Shown here: positions 31,281 to 47,456 of the stretch, piece by piece
Layout of the letters: every line of letters begins with the position of its first letter
Numbering within the stretch: the first letter of the stretch is position 1
Source: Calothrix anomala FACHB-343
GTDB taxonomy: Bacteria > Cyanobacteriota > Cyanobacteriia > Cyanobacteriales > Nostocaceae
Direction: 5' to 3'
Assembly (NCBI RefSeq): GCF_014696435.1
Contig: NZ_JACJQG010000074.1
Coordinates: 1-48,286, forward strand
Length of the DNA: 48,286 nucleotides
Notes under the pieces: model-generated
What the model saw: the letters and a program-made list of their open reading frames with translations, nothing else
Told to the model about the DNA's origin: nothing
Databases searched by the model: none
Position numbers and translations under genes: made by a program

Positions 31281-33017
31281 GTGTCTTTTCTTCCAAGTGA
31301 TTCGGCTAAAAACCAACGGTACGCAAACAATATGGAAAAAGGTTATTCGGACAAGGCATACCGTTGGAATCGGGAAAATTATTCTAGTAGACGGCGCTTT
31401 GTAGATATTTGGTCTTTCGTTTTGACCTTAATGTTCAAGCTTTGGCGTTATAACAAAGCTTGGAGTTATCCTGGCGGTATAACTGAGGCTAAACAAGCTG
31501 CAAGGCGGAAAGCACAAGCTATCTGGATTCGCAATACCTTACTCGACTTAGGGCCTACCTTTATTAAAGTCGGGCAGTTATTTTCTACTCGTGCTGATAT
31601 ATTTCCGGTTGAGTATGTAGAAGAACTGGCAAAGTTACAAGATAGAGTCCCGGCTTTTAGCTATGAACAAGTAGAAAAAACTATTGAGCAAGAATTAGGT
31701 AAGAAAATTCCGGAACTTTTCCAGAATTTTGACCCAATTCCTCTAGCGGCTGCGAGTTTGGGACAAGTCCACAAAGCTGTGCTGTATAGTGGCGAAGCTG
31801 TAGTTGTCAAAGTACAGCGTCCGGGACTAAAAAAATTATTTGAAATAGATTTACAAATTCTTAAGGGAATCGCCCGTTATTTCCAAAACCATCCCAAATG
31901 GGGGAAGGGAAGAGATTGGATTGGCATTTACGAAGAATGTTGTCGGATTCTTTGGGAAGAAATTGATTACTTAAATGAAGGACGTAACGCCGATACATTT
32001 CGGCGGAACTTTCGCGGCCATGATTGGGTGAAAGTACCGAGAGTATATTGGCGTTACGCTTCATCGCGAGTACTGACATTAGAATACGTCCCTGGTATTA
32101 AAATTAGCCAATACGAAGCATTAGAAGCTGCGGGTTTAGATCGCAAGCTCATCGCTCGTTATGGTGCCCAAGCTTACTTAATTCAACTCCTAAATAATGG
32201 CTTTTTCCACGCCGATCCCCACCCCGGAAATATTGCTGTCGGCCCTAATGGCGATTTGATATTTTACGATTTCGGGATGATGGGGCGGATTAAATCGAAC
32301 GTCCGGGAAGGCTTGATGCAAACGCTGTTTGGGATCGCCCAAAAAGATGGCGATCGCGTAGTCCAATCCCTGATCGATTTAGGCGCGATCGCTCCCGTCG
32401 ATGACATGGGGCCCGTGCGGCGTTCTGTTCAGTACATGCTGGACAATTTCATGGATAAGCCCTTTGAAAATCAATCAGTGGCCGCCATCAGTGACGACCT
32501 GTACGAAATAGCGTATAATCAACCATTTAGATTTCCCGCAACCTTCACTTTTGTGATGCGAGCTTTTTCCACTCTTGAGGGAGTCGGCAAAGGCTTAGAT
32601 CCAGAATTTAATTTTATGGAAGTTGCCAAACCCTATGCAATGCAGCTAATGACCAATATGAATGGTGCTGAAAGCAATAGCTTCCTCAATGAATTAAGTC
32701 GCCAAGCAGTACAAGTAAGTACTACTGCTTTTGGGCTACCACGGAGATTAGAAGACACGCTAGAAAAATTAGAGCGGGGCGATATGCGGATGCGCGTCCG
32801 TTCTCTAGAAACAGAACGTTTACTGAGACGGCAAAGCAATATACAAATTGGTATCAGCTATGCTTTACTAATCAGTGGATTTACGCTTTCAGCCACAATT
32901 TTATTGGTGAATAAATTTGTCTGGTTAGCTGTTTTCGCTGGTTTAATCGCCGCCGCGATCGCCTTTTTACTCATCCGCTTACTTTTACGTCTTGAACGTT
33001 CTGACCGTATGTATTAA
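31281..33017 (+). CDS. AarF/ABC1/UbiB-type kinase
   Basis: The start is GTG 31281 with AGGA upstream; an ATG at 31332 is a possible alternative. The 578-residue protein shows the atypical kinase signature: the KxGQ motif IKVGQLFSTRADIFP, the Ala-rich loop AAASLGQVHKAVLYSG, VVVKVQRPG, EEIDYLNEGRNAD, FHADPHPGNIAVG (catalytic) and IFYDFGMMG. Two transmembrane helices are at the C-terminus (about 525-570). Family members support quinone (plastoquinone or tocopherol) biosynthesis or lipid homeostasis and are ATPases. It is 30 bases upstream of the PP2C gene, forming a likely operon of a kinase-fold protein and a phosphatase. Confidence 0.92.
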   Translation: MSFLPSDSAKNQRYANNMEKGYSDKAYRWNRENYSSRRRFVDIWSFVLTLMFKLWRYNKAWSYPGGITEAKQAARRKAQAIWIRNTLLDLGPTFIKVGQLFSTRADIFPVEYVEELAKLQDRVPAFSYEQVEKTIEQELGKKIPELFQNFDPIPLAAASLGQVHKAVLYSGEAVVVKVQRPGLKKLFEIDLQILKGIARYFQNHPKWGKGRDWIGIYEECCRILWEEIDYLNEGRNADTFRRNFRGHDWVKVPRVYWRYASSRVLTLEYVPGIKISQYEALEAAGLDRKLIARYGAQAYLIQLLNNGFFHADPHPGNIAVGPNGDLIFYDFGMMGRIKSNVREGLMQTLFGIAQKDGDRVVQSLIDLGAIAPVDDMGPVRRSVQYMLDNFMDKPFENQSVAAISDDLYEIAYNQPFRFPATFTFVMRAFSTLEGVGKGLDPEFNFMEVAKPYAMQLMTNMNGAESNSFLNELSRQAVQVSTTAFGLPRRLEDTLEKLERGDMRMRVRSLETERLLRRQSNIQIGISYALLISGFTLSATILLVNKFVWLAVFAGLIAAAIAFLLIRLLLRLERSDRMY

Positions 33018-33047
33018 TCTTGCCAGTATAAATCGCAGTATAAATTT

Positions 33048-33776
33048 ATGGAACTTAACTTCGCGGGTCTTAGCGATCCCGGACTTATTCGATCTAATAA
33101 CCAGGATGCTTACTATATTGACCCAGAGAAGCGATTTTGCATCGTTGCTGATGGTATGGGTGGACATGCTGGCGGAGAGGAAGCTAGCCGGATTGCAACT
33201 GAGGAAATTCAAGCCTATTTAACAGCTAATTGGGAATCTTCCCAATCTTCTCAGGAATTACTAGTCCAAGCTTTATGGCAAGCTAATGAAGCGATTTTGC
33301 AAGATCAGCAAAATCACCCCGAACGTGCTGACATGGGTACAACGGTAGTCGTGCTGATTTTTCGCGAACCTGAGAGTCCCTGGTGCGCCCATGTGGGTGA
33401 CTCCCGCCTTTATCGCCTACGGGGAGAAGAATTAGAACAAATCACCGAAGACCATACCTGGGTCGCCAGAGCCATTAAACTGGGTGATATTACCTTTGAA
33501 GAAGCCAGAAATCATCCCTTCCGTCATGTTTTATCGCGCTGTTTGGGACGAGAAGACTTACATCAAGTCGATGTTCAGTCTTTAGATGTGAAAATAGGCG
33601 ATCGCTTACTTTTATGTAGTGACGGTTTAACAGAAGAACTCATCGAGCCAAAAATCGCTGACTGTCTTCAAGACTCCATGTTAGAAAAAGCCGCCGAATC
33701 TCTAGTTGAGGCTGCTAAAGCCCACGGTGGGCATGATAACATCACAGTCGCCCTCGTCGCTGTTGCTGAGAATTAA
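33048..33776 (+). CDS. PP2C-type Ser/Thr phosphatase
   Basis: This 242-residue protein has all metal-binding PP2C motifs: GLSDPGLIRSNNQDAYYID, IVADGMGGHAGGEEAS, AHVGDSRLYRLRGEEL, LLLCSDGLTEELIEP and GGHDNITVALV. It is a soluble single-domain enzyme, like bacterial PrpC/PstP. Partner kinases include Ser/Thr kinases such as the one at 35286-36857 (inference). It follows the AarF-type gene by 30 bases. Confidence 0.94.
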   Translation: MELNFAGLSDPGLIRSNNQDAYYIDPEKRFCIVADGMGGHAGGEEASRIATEEIQAYLTANWESSQSSQELLVQALWQANEAILQDQQNHPERADMGTTVVVLIFREPESPWCAHVGDSRLYRLRGEELEQITEDHTWVARAIKLGDITFEEARNHPFRHVLSRCLGREDLHQVDVQSLDVKIGDRLLLCSDGLTEELIEPKIADCLQDSMLEKAAESLVEAAKAHGGHDNITVALVAVAEN

Positions 33777-33812
33777 CAGGGGCTAGGGGCTAGGGGCTAA
33801 CTTGGAAATAGT

Positions 33813-33855
33813 GTTGACTATTGACTGTTGACTATTGACTATTGACTATTGACTT
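33813..33855. repeat. (TATTGAC)n / (TGTTGAC)n heptamer array
   Basis: Six 7-bp units mixing TATTGAC and TGTTGAC just after the PP2C gene, preceded by a GGGGCTAG direct repeat (33780-33798). Confidence 0.85.
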
Positions 33856-33987
33856 GATGTCTCCCCTCGTTAAAAAATACCTTGAGCGATCGCAAAATAT
33901 CTATACTCAGACTACTTTTTAGTAAATATACTCAGCAATTTGTTCAATCTGAGCATTTTTTCAATTGACAACTTGATAGAAATATTG

Positions 33988-34021
33988 CTAGCCTCCTATT
34001 TACCCGCAGGAGGCTAGTTTT
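33988..34021 (+). terminator. Rho-independent terminator ahead of nblA
   Basis: CTAGCCTCC (33988-33996) and GGAGGCTAG (34009-34017) make a 9-bp perfect stem with a 12-base loop, followed by TTTT. It isolates the nblA promoter from the PP2C transcript. Confidence 0.85.
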
Positions 34022-34036
34022 ATCTATTTTGTTAGA

Positions 34037-34065
34037 TTGACTTATTGCGGTTAATGAGGTATAGA
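34037..34065 (+). promoter_or_regulatory. sigma-70-type promoter candidate of nblA or a leader RNA
   Basis: TTGACT (34037-34042), a 17-base spacer, then TATAGA (34060-34065). If used, transcription would begin near 34072, leaving a leader of about 365 nt before the nblA ATG. A second candidate with TTGACA (34376-34381) and a weaker -10 is near the gene. No perfect NtcA site (GTA-N8-TAC) was found between 34020 and 34436. Confidence 0.45.
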
Positions 34066-34134
34066 GAATATAATAATTTACCCACTTATTTGAGCATCTC
34101 TTCTTAAGAAAATCTTAAAGGAGATGGCAAACGG

Positions 34135-34249
34135 AAACCAGGCCTCAACCCTCCTGGTTTAGCCAAACAAGCAAATTAACGAAATCTGTCTTGGCGGACA
34201 GACTTCAGTTGTATGTCAGTAGAGTTAGCGGTCAACTAACCCAACTGAA
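34135..34249 (+). other. three consecutive hairpins in the nblA leader
   Basis: Stem one: AAACCAGG/CCTGGTTT (34135-34160). Stem two: TCTGTC/GACAGA (34185-34202). Stem three: TTCAGTTG/CAACTGAA (34204-34249), enclosing GTTAG/CTAAC. All are perfect. They may form a structured 5' UTR or a separate small RNA. No riboswitch class was recognised. Confidence 0.5.
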
Positions 34250-34313
34250 AAATAACCCATAAGTAAGTAGGGAAAATTAATCCATAAGGATGTAGTCAAA
34301 TTCGTCAAACTAT

Positions 34314-34333
34314 TGTTATCTTTCTTAATAACA
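34314..34333. promoter_or_regulatory. TGTTAT-N8-ATAACA palindrome upstream of nblA
   Basis: A perfect 6+8+6 dyad 104 bp before the nblA start and 43 bp before the TTGACA. Its geometry suits a dimeric regulator. It is not the NtcA consensus. Which protein binds is unknown. Confidence 0.45.
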
Positions 34334-34436
34334 GAGGAACAAAGGTTGAACGAATAGCAATCCCAATACTATCCTTTGACACCTCATTCACCCGCACCAA
34401 GATAACCTTTACACGTTGTTTTTTCTGGAGTTAACT

Positions 34437-34634
34437 ATGAACGGACCAATTGAACTGTCCTTGGAGCAACAATTTAGCATTCGCTCCTTCGCTACTCAAG
34501 TACAGCACATGAGCCATGACCAAGCCAAAGACTTTTTAGTCAAGCTATATGAGCAAATGGTCGTGCGCGAAGCAACTTATCAAGAACTACTTAAGCACCA
34601 ATGGGGCTTAGATTCCGGCTCCACTTGGGCATAG
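34437..34634 (+). CDS. nblA: NblA, phycobilisome degradation adaptor
   Basis: Start at ATG 34437 (MNGPIELSLEQQFSIRSFAT), with GGAG six bases before it. The 65-residue protein matches NblA throughout: SLEQQFSIRSF, HDQAKDFLVKLYEQMVVREA, and TYQELLKHQWGLDSGS. It is a small helical-hairpin protein. NblA binds phycobiliproteins and recruits the Clp protease (ClpC) to dismantle phycobilisomes, mainly in nitrogen or sulphur starvation; expression is usually under NtcA and NblR control. It stands alone with large regulatory space on both sides. A hairpin follows 27 bases after the stop. Confidence 0.97.
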   Translation: MNGPIELSLEQQFSIRSFATQVQHMSHDQAKDFLVKLYEQMVVREATYQELLKHQWGLDSGSTWA

Positions 34635-35210
34635 ATTTCTTCTATTGTCGCAGTGGGCGACCTCCTTCTCTTGCTCGGTTCCAAGGAGGAAAGGAGCTGG
34701 GGATGCTGGGGCGTCAACTTCGATAGGCACTTCCCTAAAACTGACAACAAATCAAACAACCAAATAATCTATTGCTTCATAGCCATGAGGCTAAATTCGC
34801 AGTGCGCATTTAAAACTGACCATTTACCCTAGCAAACAAATGACTGTTAACTATCTGAATAGTCATGTATATGCACAATCAATGAGGCTACTGTACTCTG
34901 TACAGAGTAATTCTTGTAGAAGTTTCAACTGTCGCAGCTTCTATAAGTCTTACCGTTGCTAATTATATTTTTTATAAATACAACTTACAACTAGATATAG
35001 ATCTTTATTAATAAAACTTAACTTTATTGCCGTAACTACTCTTAAGAATCCATAAGTAATGTAAACTTCGACTTAATCTAGACAGATCAGCGTAACGGTA
35101 AACCATTCACTGAGAATTAATTGTATTAATATTTACTCAATCTGTCATGTAAGTAAGTAGGCGATCGCACATCATTATATTACGAAAATAAACAAGCCTT
35201 GAAACCCTTA
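34635..35210. other. gene-free region downstream of nblA
   Basis: It contains a CCTCCTT/AAGGAGG hairpin (34661-34689, likely the nblA 3' end, without T-run) and a 16-bp perfect palindrome TACTCTGTACAGAGTA (34894-34909). I see no ORF. The left part may carry more nblA 3' sequence. Confidence 0.5.
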
Positions 35211-35255
35211 CCAATGACAAATGACCAATGACAAATGACAAATGACCAATGACAA
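35211..35255. repeat. (CCAATGA/CAAATGA)n heptamer array
   Basis: About six 7-bp units, alternating AATGACC and AATGACA forms, between the nblA region and the Ser/Thr kinase gene. Confidence 0.85.
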
Positions 35256-35285
35256 CCCTAACTAGTTATCTTTAATTGCGCCAAC

Positions 35286-36857
35286 TTACCCAGAAAGGTC
35301 AAACTGAGAATTAGTATTCACACTTTCCAATTTGGCTAAAATCTTGGGTTTAATTTTTTCATACTCGCGCTTAAGCAAACCTTTACTCATTTGGGGTTCA
35401 GCCGCAGAAACGAGAATTTGGCTATTTTTTGCCCATTCTTGTAATTTTTCGCATTGAGCAGGGGCAATAGTAGAAGTTAAAACATGAGAACAGCTAGTAG
35501 GTGTTTCTCGAGAAAATAGTAACAGACGATATTGACCGGTTTTTCCTAAGAGATTGGTGATTTCTTGACCGAAACTGGTTTTAAGATCTAAGTAGTAAGG
35601 TAACCATTTAGGGCCATATTTACGGTTATAGATGACAGTAATCCACAACAGCATAGGGTGAGGAATAGGAATAAACATAAATTGGTTATAGCGTTTACAG
35701 ACTAAGCGCTTTTCAATTTCCTCTTGGGGTAGCATAATCCACAGAGATGGTAAAGTTCCCGCATTGGTAGTGATGATTTGGGGAAAAACAATATCCGCAA
35801 TGGGTTTACTAGCAGGCCAAGTATAGCTAGTAGTGATTTTTGCCTGGGAATCAGATGGTTTTGAATCTAACTGTGGCTTTAGTGCTAACTCAGCTTTAAC
35901 AGCGCGATCGCTATTTTGCTCGGGATTGACTACATTCTTTTCTGATACAACTAAACGTGTGTGTAAATGTTGTTCTATATCAGCTAAAGTAGTGAGGATT
36001 TCACCGATATTTTGGGGGCGATCGCCTGAGTCTTTCGCAAGACAATTCAGCACTAAATTTTCTAATTGCTTAGGTATTACCAAATTAGGCGCAGCTTCAG
36101 CAAGAGGAGTTGGCGCTTGATAGCGATGTAATTTATACCAGGCTCCAAAAGAAGAAGTCGCCGGAATTAATGGCATTGTCCCTGTCAGCATCTCATACAT
36201 CATCACGCCCAGACTATAAATATCAGAGCGGTTGTCTAGTTCTTTACCCTCCATTTGTTCTGGCGAAGAATAAGCAAGAGTACCGAGATAATAGTTAGTT
36301 ACATTACCATCTGATTGAAGTAACTTCGCAATCCCAAAATCGAGAACCTTGACTAATTCGCCAAAGCTGGGATCTTGAATTACCAGCATATTGCTCGGCT
36401 TGATATCGCGATGAATAATTGGGTAAACTGAGCCATCAACATCAACAGGGATACCATTATGGGCACACTGTAACCCTAAGCAAATTTGCCGTACCATACT
36501 CAAAAATCTAGGTACAGTCAAATTTTGCAAGCGAATAATTTGACTCAAACTTTGCCCTTGCAAATATTCCATGACGTAGAAGGGCGTATTCTTTTCATCA
36601 ACACCATAGTCCATCACTCTGACAATGTGAATGCTTTTTTGTCCAAGTAAGGCGCAGGTTTTAGCTTCACGCTCAAAACGTTCTTGCAAGCGCATTTTTT
36701 CATTCTGGATGGACAACGCCAGAAATTTCACTGCTACCGGTACTCCTCCCAACAACACATCCTTAGCACGGTAAACTCGGCCCATTGCGCCGGTACCGAT
36801 TAATTCTTGAAGCTGGTAGCGTTTGCTAAGTAAGCGACCAATGTTGGGATCTGACAT
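35286..36857 (-). CDS. Ser/Thr protein kinase with unknown C-terminal region
   Basis: Start at ATG 36857 (MSDPNIGRLLSKRYQLQELI); the TTG start upstream adds residues absent from the family. The 523-residue protein has a Hanks-type kinase at about 14-290: IGTGAMGRVYRA, Lys44 (VAVKFLAL), catalytic HRDIKPSN with Asp151, DFG with Asp173, activation segment LGTLAYSSPEQ. The remaining 230 residues have no transmembrane segment. The last part (about 345-510: SYTWPASKPIADIVFPQII, ILVSAAEPQMSKGLLKREYE) looks like a separate globular module that I do not recognise. There is a 238-bp gap to the PIN gene upstream on the same strand, so it probably has its own promoter while being adjacent to the CHAT cluster. 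Confidence 0.92.
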   Translation of the reverse strand: MSDPNIGRLLSKRYQLQELIGTGAMGRVYRAKDVLLGGVPVAVKFLALSIQNEKMRLQERFEREAKTCALLGQKSIHIVRVMDYGVDEKNTPFYVMEYLQGQSLSQIIRLQNLTVPRFLSMVRQICLGLQCAHNGIPVDVDGSVYPIIHRDIKPSNMLVIQDPSFGELVKVLDFGIAKLLQSDGNVTNYYLGTLAYSSPEQMEGKELDNRSDIYSLGVMMYEMLTGTMPLIPATSSFGAWYKLHRYQAPTPLAEAAPNLVIPKQLENLVLNCLAKDSGDRPQNIGEILTTLADIEQHLHTRLVVSEKNVVNPEQNSDRAVKAELALKPQLDSKPSDSQAKITTSYTWPASKPIADIVFPQIITTNAGTLPSLWIMLPQEEIEKRLVCKRYNQFMFIPIPHPMLLWITVIYNRKYGPKWLPYYLDLKTSFGQEITNLLGKTGQYRLLLFSRETPTSCSHVLTSTIAPAQCEKLQEWAKNSQILVSAAEPQMSKGLLKREYEKIKPKILAKLESVNTNSQFDLSG

Positions 36858-37050
36858 AGAAATTTTGGTATAAGTTGAAACAGTATAACTTCCAATTCCC
36901 AATTGGTGTAGTTATGTTAATGATGCCCAGTTTTATGAAGAATATATCTAAATTACCAGTAAAAAATTCTTCTTAATCTGTGGTTCAATATGCTACCTAA
37001 AGTACTGTCTGATGGTACTTTAGGCGCTGAGATCATGTTTTTCCTATCTA

Positions 37051-37064
37051 CACCTATATAGGTG
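37051..37064. promoter_or_regulatory. CACCTATATAGGTG palindrome between kinase and PIN gene
   Basis: A perfect 14-bp dyad about 30 bp after the stop of the PIN gene and 194 bp before the kinase start. It could be an operator or the edge of a terminator; nothing else supports either. Confidence 0.35.
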
Positions 37065-37095
37065 TACTCTGTTTGTTAGACAAACTATAGGTATA

Positions 37096-38217
37096 TTATC
37101 TTTTTAACTTGTTCAGGGATTTTGTCATACTTTTATAATCGCTATAACTTGAGGGAATTTCTCCCAGCATTTTTACTGCTTCTGCTTTTTGTCCTGATGA
37201 AGCTAGGACTTCAATAGCATACTTATGCTTAAGTCTACTTAGGCGCTGTTCTCCTTCTTTATCTAAGCGCAATCCTTGTTGATTTTTGAGACTTTGCAGT
37301 TCATTTAAAGCCTGTCTCAAAATCGATGGTTCTTTAGTACTTTGAAATTGAATAATCGATGATTCAGCTTGAGAAATCAGGTTAGCCGGGGTTGGTTCCA
37401 CAGGTTTACTGTCAGTAACAGCTTGCGCAACGATGGTTCCTGAATTATTGCCTATAAAGTTGTTAATTGCTGGCAGTGCAATTATCGCAGCACAAGCAGC
37501 AGCGACAGCAATAATCAGAGGATTTAAACCCGGTTTTTTTGTTGGTTTGGATGTATGTTGAGGACTTTGATTTTTATGCCATGATTGGCTATTACCTTTG
37601 AGCTTTGGTTTATTTTTTTTGTTATGGGGTTGAAGATTGGGTTTAGGAAAATCATTTGCTGATTTATGATTATTACTATTAGCAGGCTGTAACCGTTTCA
37701 TTCTTTGGTAAGCATCGTCAACAGCTTGTGGTACTTTACCTCGGTAATAATCGAGAAAAAACCAATCTGATAAGTCTTTGGCTGCTAGAGTGCAGAAATT
37801 TGGTAAGCCAGATTGTCCAGTTAAACCTTTCATCGTCCGATCGTAGGTAACTAGGATAACTACACTATTGGGATTTTCTCTAGCTAAACGATGAGCGCAA
37901 GCGAGAATTTGTCTATCTTTCTCGTTATCTAGGGGAATTTGACGATTATCTTCCTTTGGTTGAATTTTGTAGCGACTACCTTTACCAACAAACTCCAAAA
38001 ATTCTTTGGCTGATTCAAAATCTGAATTTTTTCTATCTTGAGATATGCGACTAATTTCGGCGTAGGTAGCTCCAGGTATATAACATTCTCCCAGTTGTTC
38101 GTTATTTCTCCAGACTTGGAGTCTCTTGGATTTATCTGCACTCAATAAAGCTAGAGTATCAAATACTAATAAATGGGGATAGGCAAATTCTGGTTTTTTA
38201 ATTGGATAGTCGCTCAT
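37096..38217 (-). CDS. PIN-domain protein with transmembrane segment
   Basis: This 373-residue protein has a PIN-like domain at about 15-165: LLVFDTLALLS (Asp20), a conserved Glu in YAEISRI (Glu54), DRQILACAHRLA (Asp101) and VVILVTYDRTMKG (Asp126), so the nuclease site looks intact. It is the PhoH/large-PIN-like form rather than a small VapC. A Lys/Asn/Pro/Gln-rich linker (about 180-230) leads to one transmembrane segment (about 232-252: NPLIIAVAAACAAIIALPAI). About 120 helical residues follow. The domain would sit on the cytoplasmic face. It is the fourth gene of the likely operon 43185-37096, 50 bases after the CHAT gene. Role as membrane-tethered RNase effector is inference. Confidence 0.82.
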   Translation of the reverse strand: MSDYPIKKPEFAYPHLLVFDTLALLSADKSKRLQVWRNNEQLGECYIPGATYAEISRISQDRKNSDFESAKEFLEFVGKGSRYKIQPKEDNRQIPLDNEKDRQILACAHRLARENPNSVVILVTYDRTMKGLTGQSGLPNFCTLAAKDLSDWFFLDYYRGKVPQAVDDAYQRMKRLQPANSNNHKSANDFPKPNLQPHNKKNKPKLKGNSQSWHKNQSPQHTSKPTKKPGLNPLIIAVAAACAAIIALPAINNFIGNNSGTIVAQAVTDSKPVEPTPANLISQAESSIIQFQSTKEPSILRQALNELQSLKNQQGLRLDKEGEQRLSRLKHKYAIEVLASSGQKAEAVKMLGEIPSSYSDYKSMTKSLNKLKR

Positions 38218-38267
38218 AGATATTCTCCTATTTAGCTGTTATTTAAAGATTACAAAAACTAAAAAAA

Positions 38268-41153
38268 TTATTTTTTGAAATGATTATTAATGCGAGTTTC
38301 AATGTTTTGGATACGTGGGGTTAATTGTCGCCACTGATATTTTTCCCGACGAATTAAACGTTCTAGGTTACATCCTTGTTGCAGTAATTCTCTAGCACGA
38401 GAAAAGTTATTACTTCCTGCTTCTAAATCTGCTAGTTCCACGTATGCACCGAGATTTGGCTTTTGCTTGAGAGATTCGTCAAAACAGTTACGAGCTTGGG
38501 CGCTATTCTTAAAGATGTAGCGATAAAAACAACCGAACTCATACCAAAAATACCCATTTTTCTCTCTATCTAATTCAATAGCTTTTTGATAGTACTCTCG
38601 CACTTTGGCAGCAAAATTTGCACCTTTAAGTTGATAACACTGAGCTATATATAAGTGCGCCAAACCATGTTTAGGATTATCTGCAATTACATCTTTTAAA
38701 TATTGCAATGCTTCATCAGGTTTGGGTGCAGGTTGGATAATTAACAGACGAGCATAATTTAATTGTGTATAGCGGATGATTCGTTTAATTTCTTGACTGA
38801 CACCTGGTTTACTTGTTTGAGATTTTGCTGCATTTAAAACTTGTAAATATGTCTTTTGCGCTTGTTTAAAGTCATTATGAAAATCTCGCAGGATATTGGC
38901 GGCGTTAATAAATTGTACCCAATCAGTGATGGGAATATTTAAGGGGTGATGAACAATAAAGGTAGCTAATAAGTCACAATGCTTTTCATTTAAGTAATCT
39001 CTAAACCAGCCAAAAGTTTTAAATAATATTTGGTAAATGTCGCGATTTTGGGGATAATTATCGAGGGCTAGATTAATGAATTTTTGTAATAAGGGAATTA
39101 ACTCGTCTCTGATGGTTTTATCTTGAGGTAGGGCATTCTGCAGACTGGAGTAATTATTTTGCAACCAAGTGGTAGTTTGTGCGATCGCTTGTTGTTGTTG
39201 TTGTTGACTGCCACTTTGAGCTACCAAGGCTAAGTATAGGCGCTGCAGAACTCTCTCCTGTGGATGCTTCAAGAGCCAAGATTTAGTTTCTTCAATGACG
39301 CTACGTTTCTGTTCCTCTGTACCGTAGCGTGAAATTAACCCTAGATGCTTGCTGCGGATTTTGCTATCTTCTGGGTGTTTTTGTCGCAATGCAGCATACA
39401 TTTTAATCCAAACTGGCCATTCTGAAGAATTTTCCTGGGGTTGAAGTGCGGAGATTTTATCTGGATAATCTTGGAGAATTTTTAAAACTAAATTATCTTC
39501 ACCATTAGTAGCTAAACCTCTCAAGCAATGGGAGATCCAGCGTTGATGGATTTCTTGAGTTGGTGCTAGAGCGGGAATTGCTGTGGTTAAATATTTTTCT
39601 GCAGATTTGGGGGGATAAATTGCAATAGCTTTTTGCAGTGTTACATTATCAATTACTTGTAAGCGTTGAAATCTTCCTTGTACGCTAGCCAGCACGAGAT
39701 TTTTTAATTCGTGATTAATAGCAATATCAACTACTTTTTGAACTGCTGCTGAAGAATATTCCGGTAAACATAGGGGGAGAATTTCTGGAGGTGTGGCGAT
39801 TTCATATTGATAAAAGCTGCAAATGACTCCAAAAACTTGATAAACTGGATATTCTTTAGTTTTCGGTAAACTTTTAATATAATCAGTTAGATTTTTAGTA
39901 TTTAATGGTTGTGATGCTGTGGTTTTGGGTGTAGCGGTATTTATTGGCGGTTGTACAGGAGATTTTTTATTAATGTTATCCTGCTGGCTGGTTGTCGCTG
40001 GTTTAGGAGATGGTTTTGTTGGGGGAGATTGGGTGGTTTCTTGATGTGGTGAATTGCTGATTTTGGGACATAAATCACCCCAAGTGGGAGGTAATTTATT
40101 TGGTAATTGATAGATAACTGGTAACCAACTAGCATTAGGCGTGTCAGATTCTAAAGCAGTTAGTCTTTCTCTGGCTTCTCTGACTGCTAAATATAGCGGT
40201 TTACTACGAGAAAAATCTTGGAGAAAATACTTTAAAAATGCTTGTGCAACTTTATCGGGGACAGGTTCCCGCATGACGATAATTTGAGGAATATGCAGTT
40301 CGGCTAGTTCTTGCGCTAATCCTAAACCGTCGCAGGAGTTAAAAATTGCTAGTTGCAAACCTCTTTCTAAGGCTCTAACTAAGCCATATTTTAATTCACT
40401 AATTTGTAATTTTGTTGTTTGATTGAGATTAATATAACCTGTTTTTACTTCTTTATCGCTGGAACTATGTCCGGCAAAAAATAGAATATCCCAGCCTGTT
40501 TCATCCCGCAGATAATCATCTAATTGGGGACGTTGTGGTTCTGCTAAAAAGACTATTTCGGGATTATCTGGTAAATTCCTCAATTCTTTGATATCGGCTT
40601 CTAAATCAATGCCTGTTCTATCTCCCAAAATTGCTAAAATTCTAATTCTGCTTCTTTTATTGGCTGATGAAATATTTGGTTTATAATACTCAGATGAGGA
40701 TAGAGCAATTTCGGCTTGGCGATATAAATCGAGAAAACTATCAAAAAATAAATGCCAAGGTAATTGACGTAATTTACTATCTTCGGTTTGAATCAGCAGG
40801 CGAATTTCATCGCTGCGGTTGAGTTCTCTATATATTGTTTCGCGAACTCTGCTAAACTGCGGATGGTCAAACCATTGCTTCATGCTATTTTTTAACTCTG
40901 TAGCTGAGATGCTACATTGTTGGGGATCTTTGCTAGTTCTCCCAGCTTGGGGGGTACCAAATCGACGTTGTATATCTAAATCTCGGTAGGCATTTTGCCA
41001 GTTATCATGGTGGGTGTCAACTTCTAGGGATTTAGGCAAAGTACCCAAAACTTGAGCAAAGGGATACTCACCATTATTGGCTATTTCTAAGTTAACCGCA
41101 AAATCCTGTTGAGTTCCTTCGGTTCTAAGTTTGAGAACTACTACCTTTACCAC
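38268..41153 (-). CDS. CHAT-domain (caspase-like) protein with helical repeats
   Basis: This 961-residue protein has a CHAT protease domain at about 90-360: WDILFFAGHSSSDKE gives catalytic His229, and LAIFNSCDGLGLAQELAELH gives catalytic Cys274, both in the expected spacing. A Pro/Thr/Gln-rich linker follows (about 365-420). Then about 540 residues of alpha-helical repeats, including two units with 37-residue period at about 589-662 (KHPQERVLQRLYLALVAQSG, then QQQQQQ and a conserved W), and ordinary TPRs at about 805-940. CHAT proteases in bacteria act as activated proteases in defence or cell-death pathways, often gated by TPR regions. No signal peptide. It is the third gene of a four-gene minus-strand set. 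Confidence 0.9.
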   Translation of the reverse strand: MVKVVVLKLRTEGTQQDFAVNLEIANNGEYPFAQVLGTLPKSLEVDTHHDNWQNAYRDLDIQRRFGTPQAGRTSKDPQQCSISATELKNSMKQWFDHPQFSRVRETIYRELNRSDEIRLLIQTEDSKLRQLPWHLFFDSFLDLYRQAEIALSSSEYYKPNISSANKRSRIRILAILGDRTGIDLEADIKELRNLPDNPEIVFLAEPQRPQLDDYLRDETGWDILFFAGHSSSDKEVKTGYINLNQTTKLQISELKYGLVRALERGLQLAIFNSCDGLGLAQELAELHIPQIIVMREPVPDKVAQAFLKYFLQDFSRSKPLYLAVREARERLTALESDTPNASWLPVIYQLPNKLPPTWGDLCPKISNSPHQETTQSPPTKPSPKPATTSQQDNINKKSPVQPPINTATPKTTASQPLNTKNLTDYIKSLPKTKEYPVYQVFGVICSFYQYEIATPPEILPLCLPEYSSAAVQKVVDIAINHELKNLVLASVQGRFQRLQVIDNVTLQKAIAIYPPKSAEKYLTTAIPALAPTQEIHQRWISHCLRGLATNGEDNLVLKILQDYPDKISALQPQENSSEWPVWIKMYAALRQKHPEDSKIRSKHLGLISRYGTEEQKRSVIEETKSWLLKHPQERVLQRLYLALVAQSGSQQQQQQAIAQTTTWLQNNYSSLQNALPQDKTIRDELIPLLQKFINLALDNYPQNRDIYQILFKTFGWFRDYLNEKHCDLLATFIVHHPLNIPITDWVQFINAANILRDFHNDFKQAQKTYLQVLNAAKSQTSKPGVSQEIKRIIRYTQLNYARLLIIQPAPKPDEALQYLKDVIADNPKHGLAHLYIAQCYQLKGANFAAKVREYYQKAIELDREKNGYFWYEFGCFYRYIFKNSAQARNCFDESLKQKPNLGAYVELADLEAGSNNFSRARELLQQGCNLERLIRREKYQWRQLTPRIQNIETRINNHFKK

Positions 41154-41189
41154 TCTTTCTCTCCTAGCAACTTTACTTTTTTACTTTAG

Positions 41190-42416
41190 TTAAACTCCAA
41201 TATCTTTGATCATGCTGGTATCGCCTAATATAATTTGAGCGATGAAACTATCTCCAGGTTCACCATCGGGAATTATAACTTCTATTAGTTCTCGATTACT
41301 TCCAGCTTGGTCTTGGTAAATAATATCTCCTGATGGAGACAGTAAAATTAGCTGTAAAGTTTCTGGTAAATAATAATAATTATTATTATCGATTGGTTGT
41401 AACTGCAATCTGACGCTAATTTTTGTGTCTGTTTCTAATCTGATGGCAATATTTAATTGGATTATTTGTTTATCTAAGGTAAATTGTTCGAGATAGCGTT
41501 CTTGCCAGATACCAGTGCTGGAACGAAAAGCTAATCTTGGTTCTGTTGTATTAGCTAATAAGTTATCAAAACTATCGCCGAGTAAGTTTAAAATTTGATG
41601 TAATCGCCGGAGATTGATCCGGTTTGTGGGTTCGCTATTGATTAATTCTAAATACTGTTCGCGGACATATTGATCTTGGGGATGCGATCGCAACCAAGTT
41701 GTGGTGTCACCTACAGCTTGCTGTTGCTGTTGTTGGCTTCCTACTGTAGCTACTAAATATAGGTATTGCTGGCGCACATATCTATCTTCTGTGTGAGTTT
41801 TTAACCAAGCAGAAGTTTGAGTTATGGCTGCTTGCTGCTGTTGAGTGGTTCCCGCAATTTCCATCAGTACTAAGTATTGTTCCCGTACATATATATCTTC
41901 AGGATGGGATGCTAACCACTGTAGGGTTTCTACTAGTGCTGCTTGCTGTTGTTGAGTTGTTCCTACTCTACTGACTAAGATGAGGTATTTTTCCCAAACT
42001 GCTGCTGCTTCAATATGGGATTGTAGCCATGTAGCTGTTTGCTGAATTGCTGTTTGTTGCTGTTCTAAAGTACCTCGATCTGCTACTAAGGTGAGGTACT
42101 GTACGCGAATTCCGGCGCTGTCTGGCTGGGTTTGCAGTAAATTCGCAATTCTGGCGATCGCTGTTTGTTGCTGTTGTGGTGTGAGAATAATACCTTCGCT
42201 GGTTATTGGTGAGGATTGATTGTCTGATTCTGCTGGTACATCTGCTTCACTCAGTCCATTTTGGAACCATTCATCATCTGCATTTTGAGAATCAAGATTC
42301 ACATAATCTGCACCCAGAGATAATTTATTTCTCTGCAATCTCTGAGCCACTAACAATGCATTCATTGCTTTGGCAACAATACTATTTTGATGTGAATTTT
42401 CTTCAACTGGACTCAT
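41190..42416 (-). CDS. 37-residue repeat protein with DUF1822-like C-terminus
   Basis: This 408-residue protein has an N-terminal 75 residues without clear domain. Then come about five repeats of exactly 37 residues (93-262), each with the pattern W-L-x-x-H-P-x-D-x-Y-V-R-E-Q-Y-L-x-L, a G-T and a QQQQ run; the conserved Trp is at 130, 167, 204 and 241. The last 120 residues are beta-rich (YYYLPETLQLILLSPSGDII) and end EPGDSFIAQIILGDTSMIKD, which resembles the C-terminus of DUF1822 proteins often found beside cyanobacterial CHAT genes (recalled, moderate). The same 37-residue unit occurs in the CHAT protein 36 bases downstream. The protein is probably the partner or regulator of that protease. 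No signal peptide. Confidence 0.8.
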   Translation of the reverse strand: MSPVEENSHQNSIVAKAMNALLVAQRLQRNKLSLGADYVNLDSQNADDEWFQNGLSEADVPAESDNQSSPITSEGIILTPQQQQTAIARIANLLQTQPDSAGIRVQYLTLVADRGTLEQQQTAIQQTATWLQSHIEAAAVWEKYLILVSRVGTTQQQQAALVETLQWLASHPEDIYVREQYLVLMEIAGTTQQQQAAITQTSAWLKTHTEDRYVRQQYLYLVATVGSQQQQQQAVGDTTTWLRSHPQDQYVREQYLELINSEPTNRINLRRLHQILNLLGDSFDNLLANTTEPRLAFRSSTGIWQERYLEQFTLDKQIIQLNIAIRLETDTKISVRLQLQPIDNNNYYYLPETLQLILLSPSGDIIYQDQAGSNRELIEVIIPDGEPGDSFIAQIILGDTSMIKDIGV

Positions 42417-42450
42417 ATATAATTAATTATATCAAAATATTTATGCTTTT

Positions 42451-43185
42451 TTATTTAAGAAATACGTCTTTATAGTCTTCTTTGGGAATGTCATCAGCAC
42501 CTGATACTATATGTTTTGTCAGCCAGGTGATATATTGTGGATGTTGCGGATTATAGCCAGCAAATAACCCTCGTTTTATTGCATAATAATTGTAAGTCTC
42601 TTTCCATTCTCTGATTTTATTATCTGTATGTTCCTTGGCGCTTTGGGTTAATTGTACGCACAAGGGATTATCTTGGTTAGCAGTCGCGATTAAATCTGTA
42701 TCTATAGCTTTATCGGCAATCAATTTACTAATAAATTTAGCAGTTTGATAATCTTTTTTTTGCCTTTGTTGACTTCTAATACTTCTACTAATTTCGTTAA
42801 TTATCTTGGCATCATCAGGTGGTGGTTCATTCTTGATTAAACTTTCCTTCCACCTGGGAAAATCTTTATCGTGTTTGTTGAACCAAGTGGGGAATATCTC
42901 TAAATGCCAATATCTATGAATTTGTAATATAGCGTCTTTTATCTGCTGTTTTTCCTCTGGATTAGCTAGACGATAACATAGCCAAAATTCTGCATCTGCA
43001 AGAATCTCTTTTAAACCAAGTAGAAGATGCTTGCGACTCATCATTGTCCCACTTGGCATCTTTTCTAAAGGACTGGCAATAGCTTTTAATCTATCTGCTA
43101 GTTTGATTTCTACCTGAGAGGCTATGGCGATTAATTCCTGAAGTTTTTGTTTTAATTTATCAGCTTCTGAATGAGTTTGTGTCAT
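42451..43185 (-). CDS. unknown helical protein, first gene of the CHAT cluster
   Basis: This 244-residue protein is almost entirely helical and charged, without signal peptide or membrane segment. Segments include an N-terminal coiled-coil-like helix (KLKQKLQELIAIASQVEIK), DAEFWLCYRLANPEEKQQIK, and IHRYWHLEIFPTWFNKHD. I do not recognise the family. It ends 34 bases before the 37-residue repeat gene, so it is the probable first gene of the transcript. It may be a sensor or adaptor for the protease, but that rests on position only. Confidence 0.75.
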   Translation of the reverse strand: MTQTHSEADKLKQKLQELIAIASQVEIKLADRLKAIASPLEKMPSGTMMSRKHLLLGLKEILADAEFWLCYRLANPEEKQQIKDAILQIHRYWHLEIFPTWFNKHDKDFPRWKESLIKNEPPPDDAKIINEISRSIRSQQRQKKDYQTAKFISKLIADKAIDTDLIATANQDNPLCVQLTQSAKEHTDNKIREWKETYNYYAIKRGLFAGYNPQHPQYITWLTKHIVSGADDIPKEDYKDVFLK

Positions 43186-43534
43186 AATTATCTATGATTA
43201 TTGGCAAGGGCTATAATTTATAACTCCAACCTACTGAGTCACAGGAATTTAGCATATAAATGCATAGATAAAATTAAGTTAGCGGTTAGGGTATAATCGC
43301 TAATTACAGCCTAATTTGGCAGTAGATTTACTGATTTTTACTATTCTCTCATAAATGATTACGGATTTCTATATATACGAAAGGTTAAAATTTATTTACG
43401 GAATGGTGGGTATATTTATTTACAAGTATTCAGTTTGATTGAAAATCACAGGCGCAGACTTATAAGATGATGGTGGTGGAGGCGATCGCAAAACGAATCA
43501 AAAGTGCGATCGCAGATTCTGCAATGAAGAAATT
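43186..43534. other. 350-bp gap between the CHAT cluster and moaE
   Basis: AT-rich; two HIP1-type GCGATCGC-like sites near 43481 and 43507. It must contain the minus-strand promoter of the CHAT cluster; a TATAAAT-like -10 is visible near 43220 on the minus strand, with only a weak -35. No gene seen. Confidence 0.4.
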
Positions 43535-44020
43535 TTAACAGTTGTCTGGTGACTGTTCGCAAGCACCAATACTCACCCAACTACTAGAACCATCTTGCCA
43601 GTGTTCTTTCTTCCAAATTGGGGCATTATGTTTTAAGGTATCAATAGCATAGCGACAAGCTTCAAAAGCTTCGCTGCGATGGGGGCAACCTACAGCAACT
43701 AACACGCTAATTTCCCCTACTTGTAAACGTCCAATGCGATGGTGGATGACTACTCGATTCACATCATTCCACAAAGAACGAATCTCAGCAGCGATTTGTG
43801 CAAATACCCGTAACGCCATCGGTTCATAGGCTTGATATTCTAAAGCAACTACAGGTTTACCATCAGTTTGATTGCGAACCATCCCACTCATCACGACAAT
43901 CGCACCATTAGCTGGATCGTCTGCCTTACTATAGATTTCTTCTATAGACAATGGTGCAAAAGTAATAGCAAAGCTATCTTCAGTTCTTTGGGGAATACGC
44001 AAGTTTATTGTATTTGTCAT
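43535..44020 (-). CDS. moaE: MoaE, molybdopterin synthase large subunit
   Basis: Start at ATG 44020 (MTNTINLRIPQRTEDSFAIT), which fits the family; ATGs at 44032 and 44038 would add only four or six residues. The 161-residue protein has GAIVVMSGMVRNQTDGKPVV, ALEYQAYEPMALRVFAQIAA, VVIHHRIGRLQVGEISVLVA, VGCPHRSEAFEACRYAIDTL and the catalytic NAPIWKKEHWQDG. It transfers sulfur from MoaD to precursor Z to make molybdopterin, needed for nitrate reductase. moaD is not in this window. Confidence 0.96.
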   Translation of the reverse strand: MTNTINLRIPQRTEDSFAITFAPLSIEEIYSKADDPANGAIVVMSGMVRNQTDGKPVVALEYQAYEPMALRVFAQIAAEIRSLWNDVNRVVIHHRIGRLQVGEISVLVAVGCPHRSEAFEACRYAIDTLKHNAPIWKKEHWQDGSSSWVSIGACEQSPDNC

Positions 44021-44038
44021 AAAAAAGTTCATATACAT

Positions 44039-44624
44039 CTATATACTTTGTTCATCCTATCGCTTGAACCATCACCAATGACTCATGACTTCTACAAATT
44101 AGCCATTCACGAGAAAATTGCACACCCAAACATAAAAATCTCTCTGAAGAGTCAACAGTCAACAGTCAACAGTCAACAGTCATTCCCAGGACATAGCCTG
44201 CTGGATGTTTTTGGCGCTAATCCATACTTTTGCCACCATTGTTTAAATTTGTCTTAATCTAGGGGATTACTAATAGAAAAGCAATAGGATGATTAAAGTA
44301 AATTTATGTCAAATTTACAGTTCTCAGTCATCTTTCTTTAGATACATTACTATAATTAAGGGTAATTATAGTTTGTGACAAAATTGATTAGACAATCTCA
44401 GATTCAACGGCTGTATTGCGAGTCAATGTCAGCTTGATTAATGTTTTGCACAAAAAATTTACTAATTAATCCTAAAAATTAACAAATGTATAGATTTTAC
44501 TAACAAGCAGAATCATAGTAAGCATTAGTCAAATACCGTCAGATTGACGTTTTCTCTGCTGGATGAATTGAGCAAATCGTGAATCGCACGAAGTTATGTA
44601 ATTCAATAGTAGTAGGAAAGTTGA
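44039..44624. other. gap with a heptamer array and no gene
   Basis: A (CAACAGT)4 heptamer array is at 44151-44180. The region is otherwise AT-rich. The right side should carry the promoter of the hybrid kinase. No ORF or RNA gene seen. Confidence 0.55.
44151..44180. repeat. (GTCAACA)n heptamer array
   Basis: Four units of the CAACAGT type, here without the AATTGCATAACTACTAAT flank that surrounds two other arrays. Confidence 0.85.
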
Positions 44625-47444
44625 ATGAACTTTGCATTGTGTAACCCTGAAAGACAAAGACTTGAGGCTCTGTTTAAATATCAAATTCTCGACACTGTTC
44701 CAGAAAAAGCATTTGACGATCTAGCGTTTTTAGCAGCAGAGATTTGTCAGACACCCATCGCCGTAATTAATTTGATTGATAGTCATCGACAGCGGTTTAA
44801 GGCGAAAGTAGGGTTAAATATCGAACAAATGCCCAGAGAATTAGGTTTTTGTCCGATATGTATCCAGCAATCTCAACCTCTGATTATTCCTGATACTTTG
44901 GTAGATGAACAGTATGCTAATTCTTTAGTTGTTATCGCTGAACCTTATGTCAGATTTTACGCTGGTGTACCTTTAATTGCACCGGGAGGAGAAGCAATTG
45001 GGACTATCTGTGTAGTCGATCGCGTACCCCGTCAAATTAGCGATCGCCAAATTGCATCATTACAAGCTTTGAGCCAATTGGCAATTAGAGAACTAGAACT
45101 ACGACGGAACTTGTTGGAATTAGCCAGTATTAAAGCAGAATTTAAACAAGCACAGCAAGCACAATATCAAAGTGAAAGCACTCTGCGCAGTTTTTTTGAT
45201 AGCGCACCGATGATGATGGGAATTGTGGAATTGTTAGATAATGATATCCGCCATATTTCTGACAACCTAGCCGCAGCGAAATTTTTAGGACTCACCCCCA
45301 ATGCTATGCAAAATCGCCGCGAGCGAGAAATGGGTGTAGCAGATGAGCAGATAGTCAAGTGGCTGGATTATTATCAGCAAGCAGCAGTTAGTCAATCACC
45401 TGTGAAGTTTGAATATGCTGTAGATACTCCCCAAGGTAAAACATGGTTATCTGCAACAGTGAGCGCGATCGCTCACAGTCACACCAAGCCGCTACAATTT
45501 GCCTATGTAATTGAAGATATCAGCAATCGCAAACAAGCCGAAGACGAATTACGCTGGACAGAAGCACTGTTACGTTCTATGACTAGTGTTTCCCCTTTAG
45601 CATTTTATGTGGTAGATAACCGCACTGATGAGATACTGTATTTTAACGATCGCTTTTGTGAAATTTGGGGGATTGAACATCTTCAATCGCAGATGACAGA
45701 GCGAAAATTGAAGAATCAGGATATTATCCCCGATTGTCTGCAATTAATTCAAGATATACCCGCTTTTGCTGCTTCCTGCACTCCCTTACAAAGCGAAGAA
45801 TACCGTTGCGTCATCGAAGATGAGATTGCATTTAACGATGGCAGGACGATTCGGCGATTCTCTAGTCAAGTTCGCGATCGCTTAGATCAATATTTTGGGC
45901 GGTTATATATTTTTGAAGATATTACCACGCGCAAACAAGTAGAACAACAAATACGCGAACAAGCTGCATTGTTAGATATCTCTACAGATGCAATTGTTCT
46001 GCGAGATTTATCTAATAATATTCTGCTCTGGAATAAAAGCGCCGAAAAGCTTTATGGTTGGACAGCAGCAGAAGCGATCGATAAAACTGCCCATGAAATT
46101 TTTAGCAATGAACCTTTAGCACAATATTTAGAAATTTGTCAGACTGTAATTCAACAAGGTTCTTGGGAAGGAGAATTAGAAAAAATTAGTAAATTCGGCA
46201 GAGAAATCATCGTTGCTAGTCGCTGGATGTTAGTCCGAGACGAGCATTTAGAACCGAAATCAATTTTGATTGTAGATACTGATATTACCAAAAAAAAACA
46301 ACTAGAAAAGAAATTTTTACGTGCCCAAAGAATGGAAAGTATCGGCACTCTCGCCAGTGGAATCGCCCATGATTTAAATAATGTATTATCGCCGATATTA
46401 ATGTCAGTACAGCTGCTGAAAATGAAAGCCTCTGGACAGCAAATTGAGCAAATGTTATCGATAGTAGAAACCAACGTCAAACGAGGCGCAAATTTAGTTA
46501 AACAAGTCCTATCTTTTGTCCGGGGAATTGAAGGCGATCGCCGCGTACTGCAAATTAAGCAGATTATCGATGAACTGCAACAAATTATTCAAGAAACATT
46601 CCCCAAAACCATTACCTTAACTACAGAATTAGCCGCAGATTTATTCCCAGTTTATGGTGATAGCACCCAATTACATCAAGTCTTGATTAATTTATGTTTA
46701 AATGCCCGCGATGCCATGCCAGATGGCGGGACAATTACAATAGCCGCGAATAATATTTACATTGATGAAATCTATAGTCAGGTACATTTTGAAGCCCAAG
46801 TAGGTCATTACCTAGTTTTAACAATTACGGATACTGGATTTGGTATACCTAGCGAACTATTAGATAAAATCTTTGAACCATTTTTTACCACGAAAGAATT
46901 TGGTTACGGTACAGGATTAGGTTTATCTACAGCGATCGGTATTATTAAAGGACATGGTGGATTTATTAACGTATCCAGTTCGCTAGGAAAAGGGACAACA
47001 TTTAAAGTGTACTTACCTGCGGTAAATACAGTAGAAATTCCCATACCAGAAGATAGCGAAATGCCTAACGGCAATGGAGAATGGCTGTTAGTAGTGGATG
47101 ATGAAGCAGCAATTCGCGAAGTAACAAAAGCATCTTTAGAAAGCTATAATTACAAAATTATCTCTGCTAGCGATGGCATTGATGCGATCGCACTTTATGC
47201 GCGCAATCAAGATAAAATTAAAGTGGCAATTATCGATATGATGATGCCAAAAATGGATGGTGCAACCACCATTGCAACTTTGCATGGCATAAATCCAGAA
47301 TTACCTATGATAGCTGTCAGTGGATTAGCAACAAGCGAACAAGTACCGATCAATAAAACACTCCAGCATACAGCATTTTTGTCTAAACCATATACAGTGC
47401 AGGAACTATTAAAAACTCTGCACCTACTGTTGACACAAAAATAA
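44625..47444 (+). CDS. hybrid histidine kinase (GAF, PAS, HisKA, HATPase, receiver)
   Basis: Start at ATG 44625 with AGGAAA seven bases ahead. Domains in the 939 residues: GAF at about 10-160 (ILDTVPEKAFDDLAFLAAEI, FYAGVPLIAPGGEAIGTICV), three PAS units at about 185-300, 310-440 and 445-560 (each ends in a DIT/DIS-RKQ motif), HisKA with His582 (ASGIAHDLNNVLSPILMSVQ), HATPase (INLCLNARDAMPDGG, ITDTGFGIPSELLD, GYGTGLGLSTA) and a C-terminal receiver (LLVVDDEAAIREVTK, IIDMMMPKMDG). No transmembrane segment, so a cytosolic sensor. The GAF lacks an obvious bilin Cys of the phytochrome type. A small SnoaL-like gene follows 12 bases later. Confidence 0.93.
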   Translation: MNFALCNPERQRLEALFKYQILDTVPEKAFDDLAFLAAEICQTPIAVINLIDSHRQRFKAKVGLNIEQMPRELGFCPICIQQSQPLIIPDTLVDEQYANSLVVIAEPYVRFYAGVPLIAPGGEAIGTICVVDRVPRQISDRQIASLQALSQLAIRELELRRNLLELASIKAEFKQAQQAQYQSESTLRSFFDSAPMMMGIVELLDNDIRHISDNLAAAKFLGLTPNAMQNRREREMGVADEQIVKWLDYYQQAAVSQSPVKFEYAVDTPQGKTWLSATVSAIAHSHTKPLQFAYVIEDISNRKQAEDELRWTEALLRSMTSVSPLAFYVVDNRTDEILYFNDRFCEIWGIEHLQSQMTERKLKNQDIIPDCLQLIQDIPAFAASCTPLQSEEYRCVIEDEIAFNDGRTIRRFSSQVRDRLDQYFGRLYIFEDITTRKQVEQQIREQAALLDISTDAIVLRDLSNNILLWNKSAEKLYGWTAAEAIDKTAHEIFSNEPLAQYLEICQTVIQQGSWEGELEKISKFGREIIVASRWMLVRDEHLEPKSILIVDTDITKKKQLEKKFLRAQRMESIGTLASGIAHDLNNVLSPILMSVQLLKMKASGQQIEQMLSIVETNVKRGANLVKQVLSFVRGIEGDRRVLQIKQIIDELQQIIQETFPKTITLTTELAADLFPVYGDSTQLHQVLINLCLNARDAMPDGGTITIAANNIYIDEIYSQVHFEAQVGHYLVLTITDTGFGIPSELLDKIFEPFFTTKEFGYGTGLGLSTAIGIIKGHGGFINVSSSLGKGTTFKVYLPAVNTVEIPIPEDSEMPNGNGEWLLVVDDEAAIREVTKASLESYNYKIISASDGIDAIALYARNQDKIKVAIIDMMMPKMDGATTIATLHGINPELPMIAVSGLATSEQVPINKTLQHTAFLSKPYTVQELLKTLHLLLTQK

Positions 47445-47456
47445 TTTACCCTCCCC

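Follow-up and report, generated by a model that had tools for sequence, protein, structure and literature searches.

A CHAT protease module of Calothrix anomala and its proposed derivation from DUF1822-linked caspase systems

What might bind a protease to the product of a neighboring gene with which it shares the same short repeat? The question is raised by four successive genes on the minus strand of contig NZ_JACJQG010000074.1 of the cyanobacterium Calothrix anomala FACHB-343, a stretch of 48,286 nucleotides (hereafter, the window). In order, they encode a protein that we call hel, a repeat-bearing partner protein, a CHAT protease, and a PIN-domain protein, separated by gaps of 34, 36, and 50 bp, in agreement with the spacing given when the letters of the window were first inspected (the original prediction). 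The core of the module consists of the first three genes. We tentatively propose, with a confidence that falls a little short of even, that together with the PIN gene they represent a derived three-gene variant of the EACC2-caspase (CHAT)/DUF1822 systems, in which the partner would clamp hel and the CHAT protease would release it. The original prediction regarded the combination of genes as unfamiliar. This no longer holds for the pairing of CHAT with DUF1822, described in 2021 for the EACC2-caspase systems along with a sigma factor (PMC8195603, in the sections consulted); it does hold for the hel-partner pair and the repeat, on which topic searches of main texts returned no publication.

The hel-partner gene pair and the two halves of DUF1822

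Sequence comparisons identify hel and the N-terminus of the partner as a widespread cyanobacterial gene pair, which is more conserved than the repeat and constitutes a family pair without a name. Matches to hel were found in 29 of 291 genomes of the class, that of the window included, and on three plasmid records, all cyanobacterial; none was seen outside cyanobacteria, and no phage record or viral contig was matched. The partner domain is present in 37 of 338 genomes of the class. For 44 of 46 hel genes, a partner-domain gene lies downstream on the same strand, within 90 bp in 41 cases and at gaps of 283, 353, and 515 bp in the other three; the remaining two hel matches are fragments, and at two of the 44 pairs (L108 and L111) a small listed open reading frame (ORF) intervenes. 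The loci were chosen by hel, the partner domain, or DUF1822, and are hence evidence on the pair and not a random sample. Eight loci fetched by the partner domain lack hel (one of them, L137, reaches the contig end), and at L155 no partner-domain ORF was obtained.

The window version of the partner domain has DEWF where most other members have GDWL, part of the GDWLE motif that marks the family. A profile built without the window and Calothrix brevissima NIES-22 sequences matched it among 761 ORFs at an E-value of 1.4e-4, with the best unrelated match at 1.1; genome-wide, a profile that includes the window's own row (A2) recovered it at 1.7e-16. What lies behind the domain varies from almost nothing (partners of 63-73 residues, with little beyond the domain, at L100, L103, and L104), through a short stretch (140-180 residues in total), to an M78 peptidase, RNase III, or DUF1822. 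Fusions to RNase III domains are seen at L111:11309-12337 and at L138:9635-11401, the latter also bearing NCH2, the NACHT C-terminal helical domain; fusions to an M78/IrrE-type peptidase-like region occur at L101:1723-2952, L102:10343-11518, and L137:2-1057, and the protein at L109 is similar.

The window partner belongs to the DUF1822 fusions. Its match to this family (PF08852, E 8.4e-11) passes the cut-off and covers the C-terminal half only, where an AlphaFold2 (AF2) model places strands at low confidence. By contrast, 17 of the 18 other DUF1822 genes of the genome (9.24 Mb, with 93 CHAT-profile and 20 DUF1822 matches) match the N-terminal half of the profile. This difference is paralleled by the gene upstream. 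In 16 of these 18 it encodes a member of a set of sigma-like clusters (L019 and L028 are without such a neighbor, while at L013 the sigma-like gene is second upstream, an overlapping 97-residue ORF being listed first), whereas in all 17 partner-domain-DUF1822 fusions among the matches listed it is hel that lies directly upstream. The 17 comprise at least 14 from one search plus those of Anabaena sp. 90, NIES-22, and the window; two DUF1822 genes without the partner domain (L210 and L211) stand outside them. Both pair types are adjacent at L209:13916-18563, where a sigma-like gene, a full DUF1822, hel, and a partner-domain-DUF1822 fusion lie in a row; the sigma-like protein was assigned through the profile of its cluster and matches no Pfam family at E 1e-5. 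When one representative of each of the three sigma-like clusters was scanned, Pfam Sigma70 matches occurred in the first alone (L014), to which the other two are tied by hhalign (98.4% over 265 columns and 67.8% over 46 columns). We also considered hel as a sigma factor and rejected this, the hhalign probability against the three sigma-like alignments being 0.2-1.6%.

A CHAT gene lies next downstream on the same strand in 9 of the 18 other DUF1822 genes, a count that leaves out a 327-residue downstream ORF with a weak match (19-109) at L020 and a CHAT gene on the opposite strand at L022. Among the 17 fusions, CHAT adjoins four: those of the window, NIES-22, the Anabaena sp. 90 plasmid pANA01, and L125 of genome G032, where the order hel-DUF1822-CHAT is that of the window and the CHAT protein carries nSTAND1. 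Counted by distance, a CHAT gene is found no more than about 4 kb from the hel-partner pair at L096, L098, L099, L139, and L153, whose CHAT proteins match one profile, and in the window, NIES-22, and L125, whose CHAT proteins match another.

The early recognition of the 961-residue product as a CHAT protein is borne out by its match to PF12770 (E 7.9e-17) and by H229 and C274, kept in GHS and NSCDG motifs, which we take to be the catalytic residues on the precedent of the family. As judged from its relatives, the protein is built of a constant N-terminal part, in which the His and Cys are kept, and a member-specific C-terminus. Among 15 CHAT-profile proteins from DUF1822 loci, residues 1-361 find a nearly complete counterpart in 13 (in L028, at the C-terminal end) and a partial one in those of L027 and L029; the His/Cys columns are unaligned in three unrelated ORFs of L161 and in the L028 protein, which was cut at residue 420. 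Beside the constant part, ten such proteins carry CHASE2 (six), Peripla_BP_6, nSTAND1 with WD40, an N-terminal pentapeptide region, or nothing (one each). Relatives at E 1e-20 are found on 37 plasmid records.

As far as the consulted parts of their description go, the EACC2-caspase systems likewise combine a constant N-terminal caspase-fold domain (here, CHAT) with a variable C-terminus and a DUF1822 neighbor, and an extracytoplasmic-function (ECF) sigma gene lies near most, not all, of them (PMC8195603). Residues 1-361 of the window protein are a candidate EACC2 region. The window differs in having hel and not a sigma gene, and in that the N-terminal half of DUF1822 is replaced by the partner domain and the 37-residue repeats.

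The hel protein has no Pfam family above the cut-off (the best is DUF5069, E 0.048), no match in NCBIfam, PADLOC, or PHROGs, and no convincing match among PDB sequences; an AF2 model was discarded at a pLDDT of 53.6. Its alignment is strongly conserved, with 14 of 25 tabulated positions identical in 44 of 44 members, including D158, T163, D164, Q178, K190, and R205, and contains a D..Q-x-T..K order in which we presume to see a resemblance to the PD-(D/E)XK motif. We suspect that hel may be a nuclease. In an hhalign comparison with Mrr, the alignment keeps the register of this order at 0.9% (2.0% for the C-terminal part) and a score of 20.7, reached by none of 120 column shuffles. Because this score is no higher than those against unrelated sigma-like alignments (17.0-22.1), a PD-(D/E)XK identity is a guess, and the resemblance, at the level of the motif, is not significant.

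The 37-residue repeat and a sister system in Anabaena

The original prediction had described the partner as a repeat protein with units of exactly 37 residues and Trp at 130/167/204/241, and so it is, with five contiguous units over residues 75-259. With the partner protein alone as a query, the CHAT protein is found at E 8.8e-17. It scores 43.8 bits with a profile made from the five partner units only, and none of 1000 composition-shuffled versions of it exceeds 10.8 bits. The sharing of the repeat is hence upheld; the two exact units that had been placed at about 589-662 of the CHAT protein are, on the other hand, one full and two partial diverged units over 588-665, namely a half at 588-607, a complete one at 608-644 (or 609-644), and a second half, which carries the Q-run and Trp, at 646-665. 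Identity between the complete unit and those of the partner is 24-38%. At the DNA level, the partner units share 39-53% identity with the two main stretches of the CHAT protein (608 and 645), and each of the five partner units scores higher against some unit of pANA01 than against the window CHAT unit, which argues against recent copying of units between the two genes, though weakly, as the units are short.

The repeat is predicted to form helix pairs stacked as a TPR-like solenoid. An AF2 model of the partner units, made on a two-sequence alignment, displays helix pairs with a pLDDT of 73-93 in 10-residue blocks over residues 91-250, and its best Foldseek matches are mostly TPR or TPR-like proteins (E 1e-4 to 4e-3). 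In Pfam, no TPR model is matched by the partner when E-values up to 1 are allowed, the nearest model being ARM_TT21_5th at 0.13. A general TPR variant would be met everywhere; the genome search instead placed the repeat in 4 of 388 sampled genomes of the class at E 1e-5, namely that of the window and three more (G248, G435, and G427, at L116-L118). In each of these three a single protein bears the repeat, with no second repeat-bearing protein among the matches. These proteins resemble the window CHAT protein in the repeat and in a homologous C-terminus, residues 549-957 of the latter aligning with them in parts at 27-35%; the two that were scanned with Pfam (L116 and L117) differ in having Peptidase_C14 and not CHAT at the N-terminus, followed by a STAND-type NTPase, the repeats, and TPR. 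In genome G081, which may lie outside the 388-genome sample, units of the repeat end a 668-residue protein (L119:9991-11997, the same as L039) that is a candidate glycosyltransferase by sequence.

A sister system is found on plasmid pANA01 of Anabaena sp. 90 (ANA_RS23020-ANA_RS23015-ANA_RS23825), which encodes hel (232 residues), a partner-domain-DUF1822 protein (218 residues), and a CHAT protein (1889 residues), with gaps of 50 and 28 bp. It is like the window in this gene order and in a CHAT protein with 37-residue repeats. It is unlike the window in that the CHAT protein combines a STAND-type NTPase match with a long 37-residue array (16 strict or 19 permissive matches) and TPR, that its DUF1822 partner is free of repeats, and that no PIN gene is annotated in the 14 kb examined. 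The two CHAT proteins are 57% identical over residues 1-361 of both, and 33% identical between 419-665 of the window protein and 617-932 of its relative, whose NTPase part (413-542) is without a counterpart in the window. As pANA01 has the repeat in the CHAT protein only, and G248, G435, and G427 have one such protein each, the sharing of repeats is not a conserved trait of protease-partner pairs. The simplest history that we infer from these comparisons is that the window CHAT protein lost the NTPase and most of the array, while the partner gained units.

A proposed mechanism and its alternatives

In the mechanism that we propose, the N-terminal domain of the partner would bind hel and keep it idle, while the solenoids of protease and partner would pack together as the split halves of an ancestral array left after the loss of the NTPase. 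A trigger, probably derived from an invader or from stress, would activate the CHAT protease, which would then cut the partner and free hel to act as an effector or regulator; the PIN protein, held in the membrane, may act as a further effector with RNase activity. A setting of conflict or cell death, already suggested by the original prediction, fits such a CHAT module. The two options raised there for the protease and its neighbor, assembly via like repeats and the neighbor as substrate, are compatible with each other, and each may hold. We prefer to see the partner as a clamp on a cargo because the upstream gene and the N-terminal domain of DUF1822 swap together, as would be expected of such a system.

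Several observations weigh against this reading. A CHAT cleavage site, a complex, and a trigger were neither found nor modeled. On the side of the presumed alternative cargo, two of the three sigma-like clusters lack a Pfam sigma match in the scanned representative. CHAT is absent from the three listed ORFs on either side in 13 of the 17 partner-domain-DUF1822 loci; in 5 of 12 loci (L198-L209), CHAT of the other type lies farther off and on the strand opposite hel, and L209 has two small matches about 12 kb away. More broadly, CHAT is not needed for the hel-partner pair, since 36 of 46 hel rows have none in the fetched stretch. The clamp itself may be decaying, as the window partner domain is diverged and both hel and the partner evolve faster, with ratios of nonsynonymous to synonymous substitution (dN/dS) against NIES-22 of 0.50 and 0.37, respectively. 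Finally, the split repeat is seen in two closely related genomes only and could be a neutral accident.

Some of these observations are shared by other explanations. The partner could be a scaffold or co-receptor, whose TPR-like repeats stack with those of the protease to sense a ligand, with CHAT cleaving a host protein, the PIN protein, or itself. This has a modest chance of being right: TPR-like repeats are indeed common to both proteins, and activation by autopeptidase action has been proposed for the EACC2-caspase family (PMC8195603, consulted in part), but it does not account for an upstream gene that changes in step with the N-terminal half of DUF1822. That hel and the partner domain form a toxin-antitoxin-like or enzyme-inhibitor pair of their own, with CHAT acting independently as one of their many associates, seems unlikely to us, even though it readily accommodates the minimal partners, the fusions of the domain to M78 peptidase or RNase III, and the DUF1822-fused loci that have no CHAT within three ORFs. 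It sits poorly with the short gaps of 34 and 36 bp and the shared repeat in the window, with the gene order hel-DUF1822-CHAT, which recurs in Anabaena sp. 90 and in G032, and with a second CHAT type near the pair. Quite improbable, in our estimate, is a decaying remnant, that is, a former CHAT-STAND-repeat system minus its NTPase, in which the partner repeat is left from recombination and the module has no present function. The CHAT protein is 961 residues long against 1889 in the sister system, with the NTPase region missing, and the restriction to two genomes and the dN/dS of hel and the partner would agree with such a fate. Against it, all four genes are intact in both the window strain and NIES-22, the His/Cys motifs are kept, and the dN/dS values of CHAT and PIN are 0.13 and 0.14. 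Beyond the module, the kinase gives 0.15 and PP2C 0.02.

Beyond the proposal that the window partner clamps hel, we put forward a broader and rather speculative one, which we think has perhaps a slim-to-modest prospect of being correct: that hel and the GDWLE domain constitute an undescribed, exchangeable cargo-clamp pair of cyanobacteria, joining CHAT of two types, M78 peptidases, and RNase III. In its CHAT form it would be ICAD/CAD-like, hel possibly being a nuclease, and the window array would have been split for mutual recognition. In ICAD/CAD, cutting of the clamp by a caspase frees the nuclease, a logic parallel to that proposed for the partner and hel.

Genomic setting and relation to known protease systems

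The coordinates of the module and its parts are collected in Table 1. The module is present in the window genome and in NIES-22 and absent from six of seven same-genus genomes; in those six, the ABC1, PP2C, and kinase genes remain together, and moaE is elsewhere. The Ser/Thr kinase, which the original prediction had counted as the fifth gene of the system, is thus a separate conserved neighbor, part of an ABC1-PP2C-nblA-kinase block that stands without the module in these genomes. The nblA gene of this block is a 72-residue ORF between PP2C and the kinase (34416-34634; PF04485, E 1.9e-24).

The PIN gene product is as first described, with a PIN_4 match (E 3.3e-9) and a single hydrophobic segment, covered by 19-residue windows that start at 229-238. 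Its candidacy as a conserved membrane-bound effector fared less well. Of 242 genomes, 8 have a match at E 1e-10, counting that of the window; in six of the seven others, stretches of 10-20 kb contained no hel, partner-domain, DUF1822, or CHAT match, and PIN beside the module was seen only in the window and NIES-22.

The module was probably gained recently. The moaE gene of NIES-22 adjoins a gene for a large serine recombinase (L189:1796-3205), and roughly 90 bp from the 3' end of moaE recur some 22 kb off, beside the module (L044 near 8779-8880); between the moaE copies lie Prim-Pol/DUF3987, second recombinase, and HsdM-like genes. This region is probably an integrative element beside the module. 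It fits moaE being a site of repeated integration, and we infer that the module may itself have arrived in that way. At 35176-35289, 33792-33854, and 44095-44182, the window contains short dispersed repeats, of which genomes of the same genus have many copies.

Table 1. Features of the CHAT module and the adjoining kinase gene in the window.
Feature	Position	Strand	Remarks
hel (gene 1), 244 aa	42451..43185	-	first gene of the module; sigma-like gene in this place at related loci
Partner protein (gene 2), 408 aa	41190..42416	-	hel-partner domain, five 37-residue TPR-like units, C-terminal half of DUF1822
hel-partner domain, aa 11-57 of partner protein	42246..42386	-	diverged; profile search
Five contiguous 37-residue units, aa 75-259 of partner protein	41640..42194	-	predicted five helix pairs, TPR-like solenoid
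DUF1822 C-terminal half in partner protein	41202..41729	-	PF08852 profile positions 220-368 of 370
CHAT protease (gene 3), 961 aa	38268..41153	-	constant part 1-361 with H229/C274, linker, repeat remnant 588-665, C-terminus with TPR matches
Repeat remnant in CHAT protein, aa 588-665	39159..39392	-	half, full (608-644), and half unit
PIN_4 protein (gene 4)	37096..38217	-	one membrane segment; accessory to the module
Ser/Thr kinase	35286-36902		193 bp beyond the PIN gene; TTG start in the listed ORF

Two published systems invite comparison. In the type III-E Craspase (Csx29 TPR-CHAT, Csx30, CASP-sigma), Csx30 binds CASP-sigma through its N-terminal domain, and the inhibition was concluded to be lifted when Csx29 processes Csx30 (PMC10028731, in the parts consulted). 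The window shares with it a CHAT protease and a gene for a presumed cargo nearby, and the predicted counterpart of the adaptor domain that holds the cargo would, by analogy, be the clamp of the partner on hel; it differs in that the cargo would be hel and not a sigma factor, and the cleavage a predicted one. A scan of nine proteins of the window gave no Cas7-11/gRAMP, and the stretch 30000-48286 yielded no CRISPR-like direct repeats. In the Canu loci, a bacterial caspase-family protease activates a linked pro-nuclease of the metallo-beta-lactamase (MBL) fold (PMC12799240, likewise in part). A caspase-family protease with a linked effector, putative in the window, is common to both; hel is without an MBL match, and lactamase_B gave no match in hel, PIN, or the partner at E up to 1.

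Many cyanobacteria carry DUF1822, on which very little has been published. The matched swap makes it a testable adaptor, with one half for a cargo, either sigma-like or hel, and the other for CHAT. If this is true, the Csx30-like logic of release would not be confined to CRISPR type III-E, and the CHAT systems of cyanobacteria would employ exchangeable cargoes.

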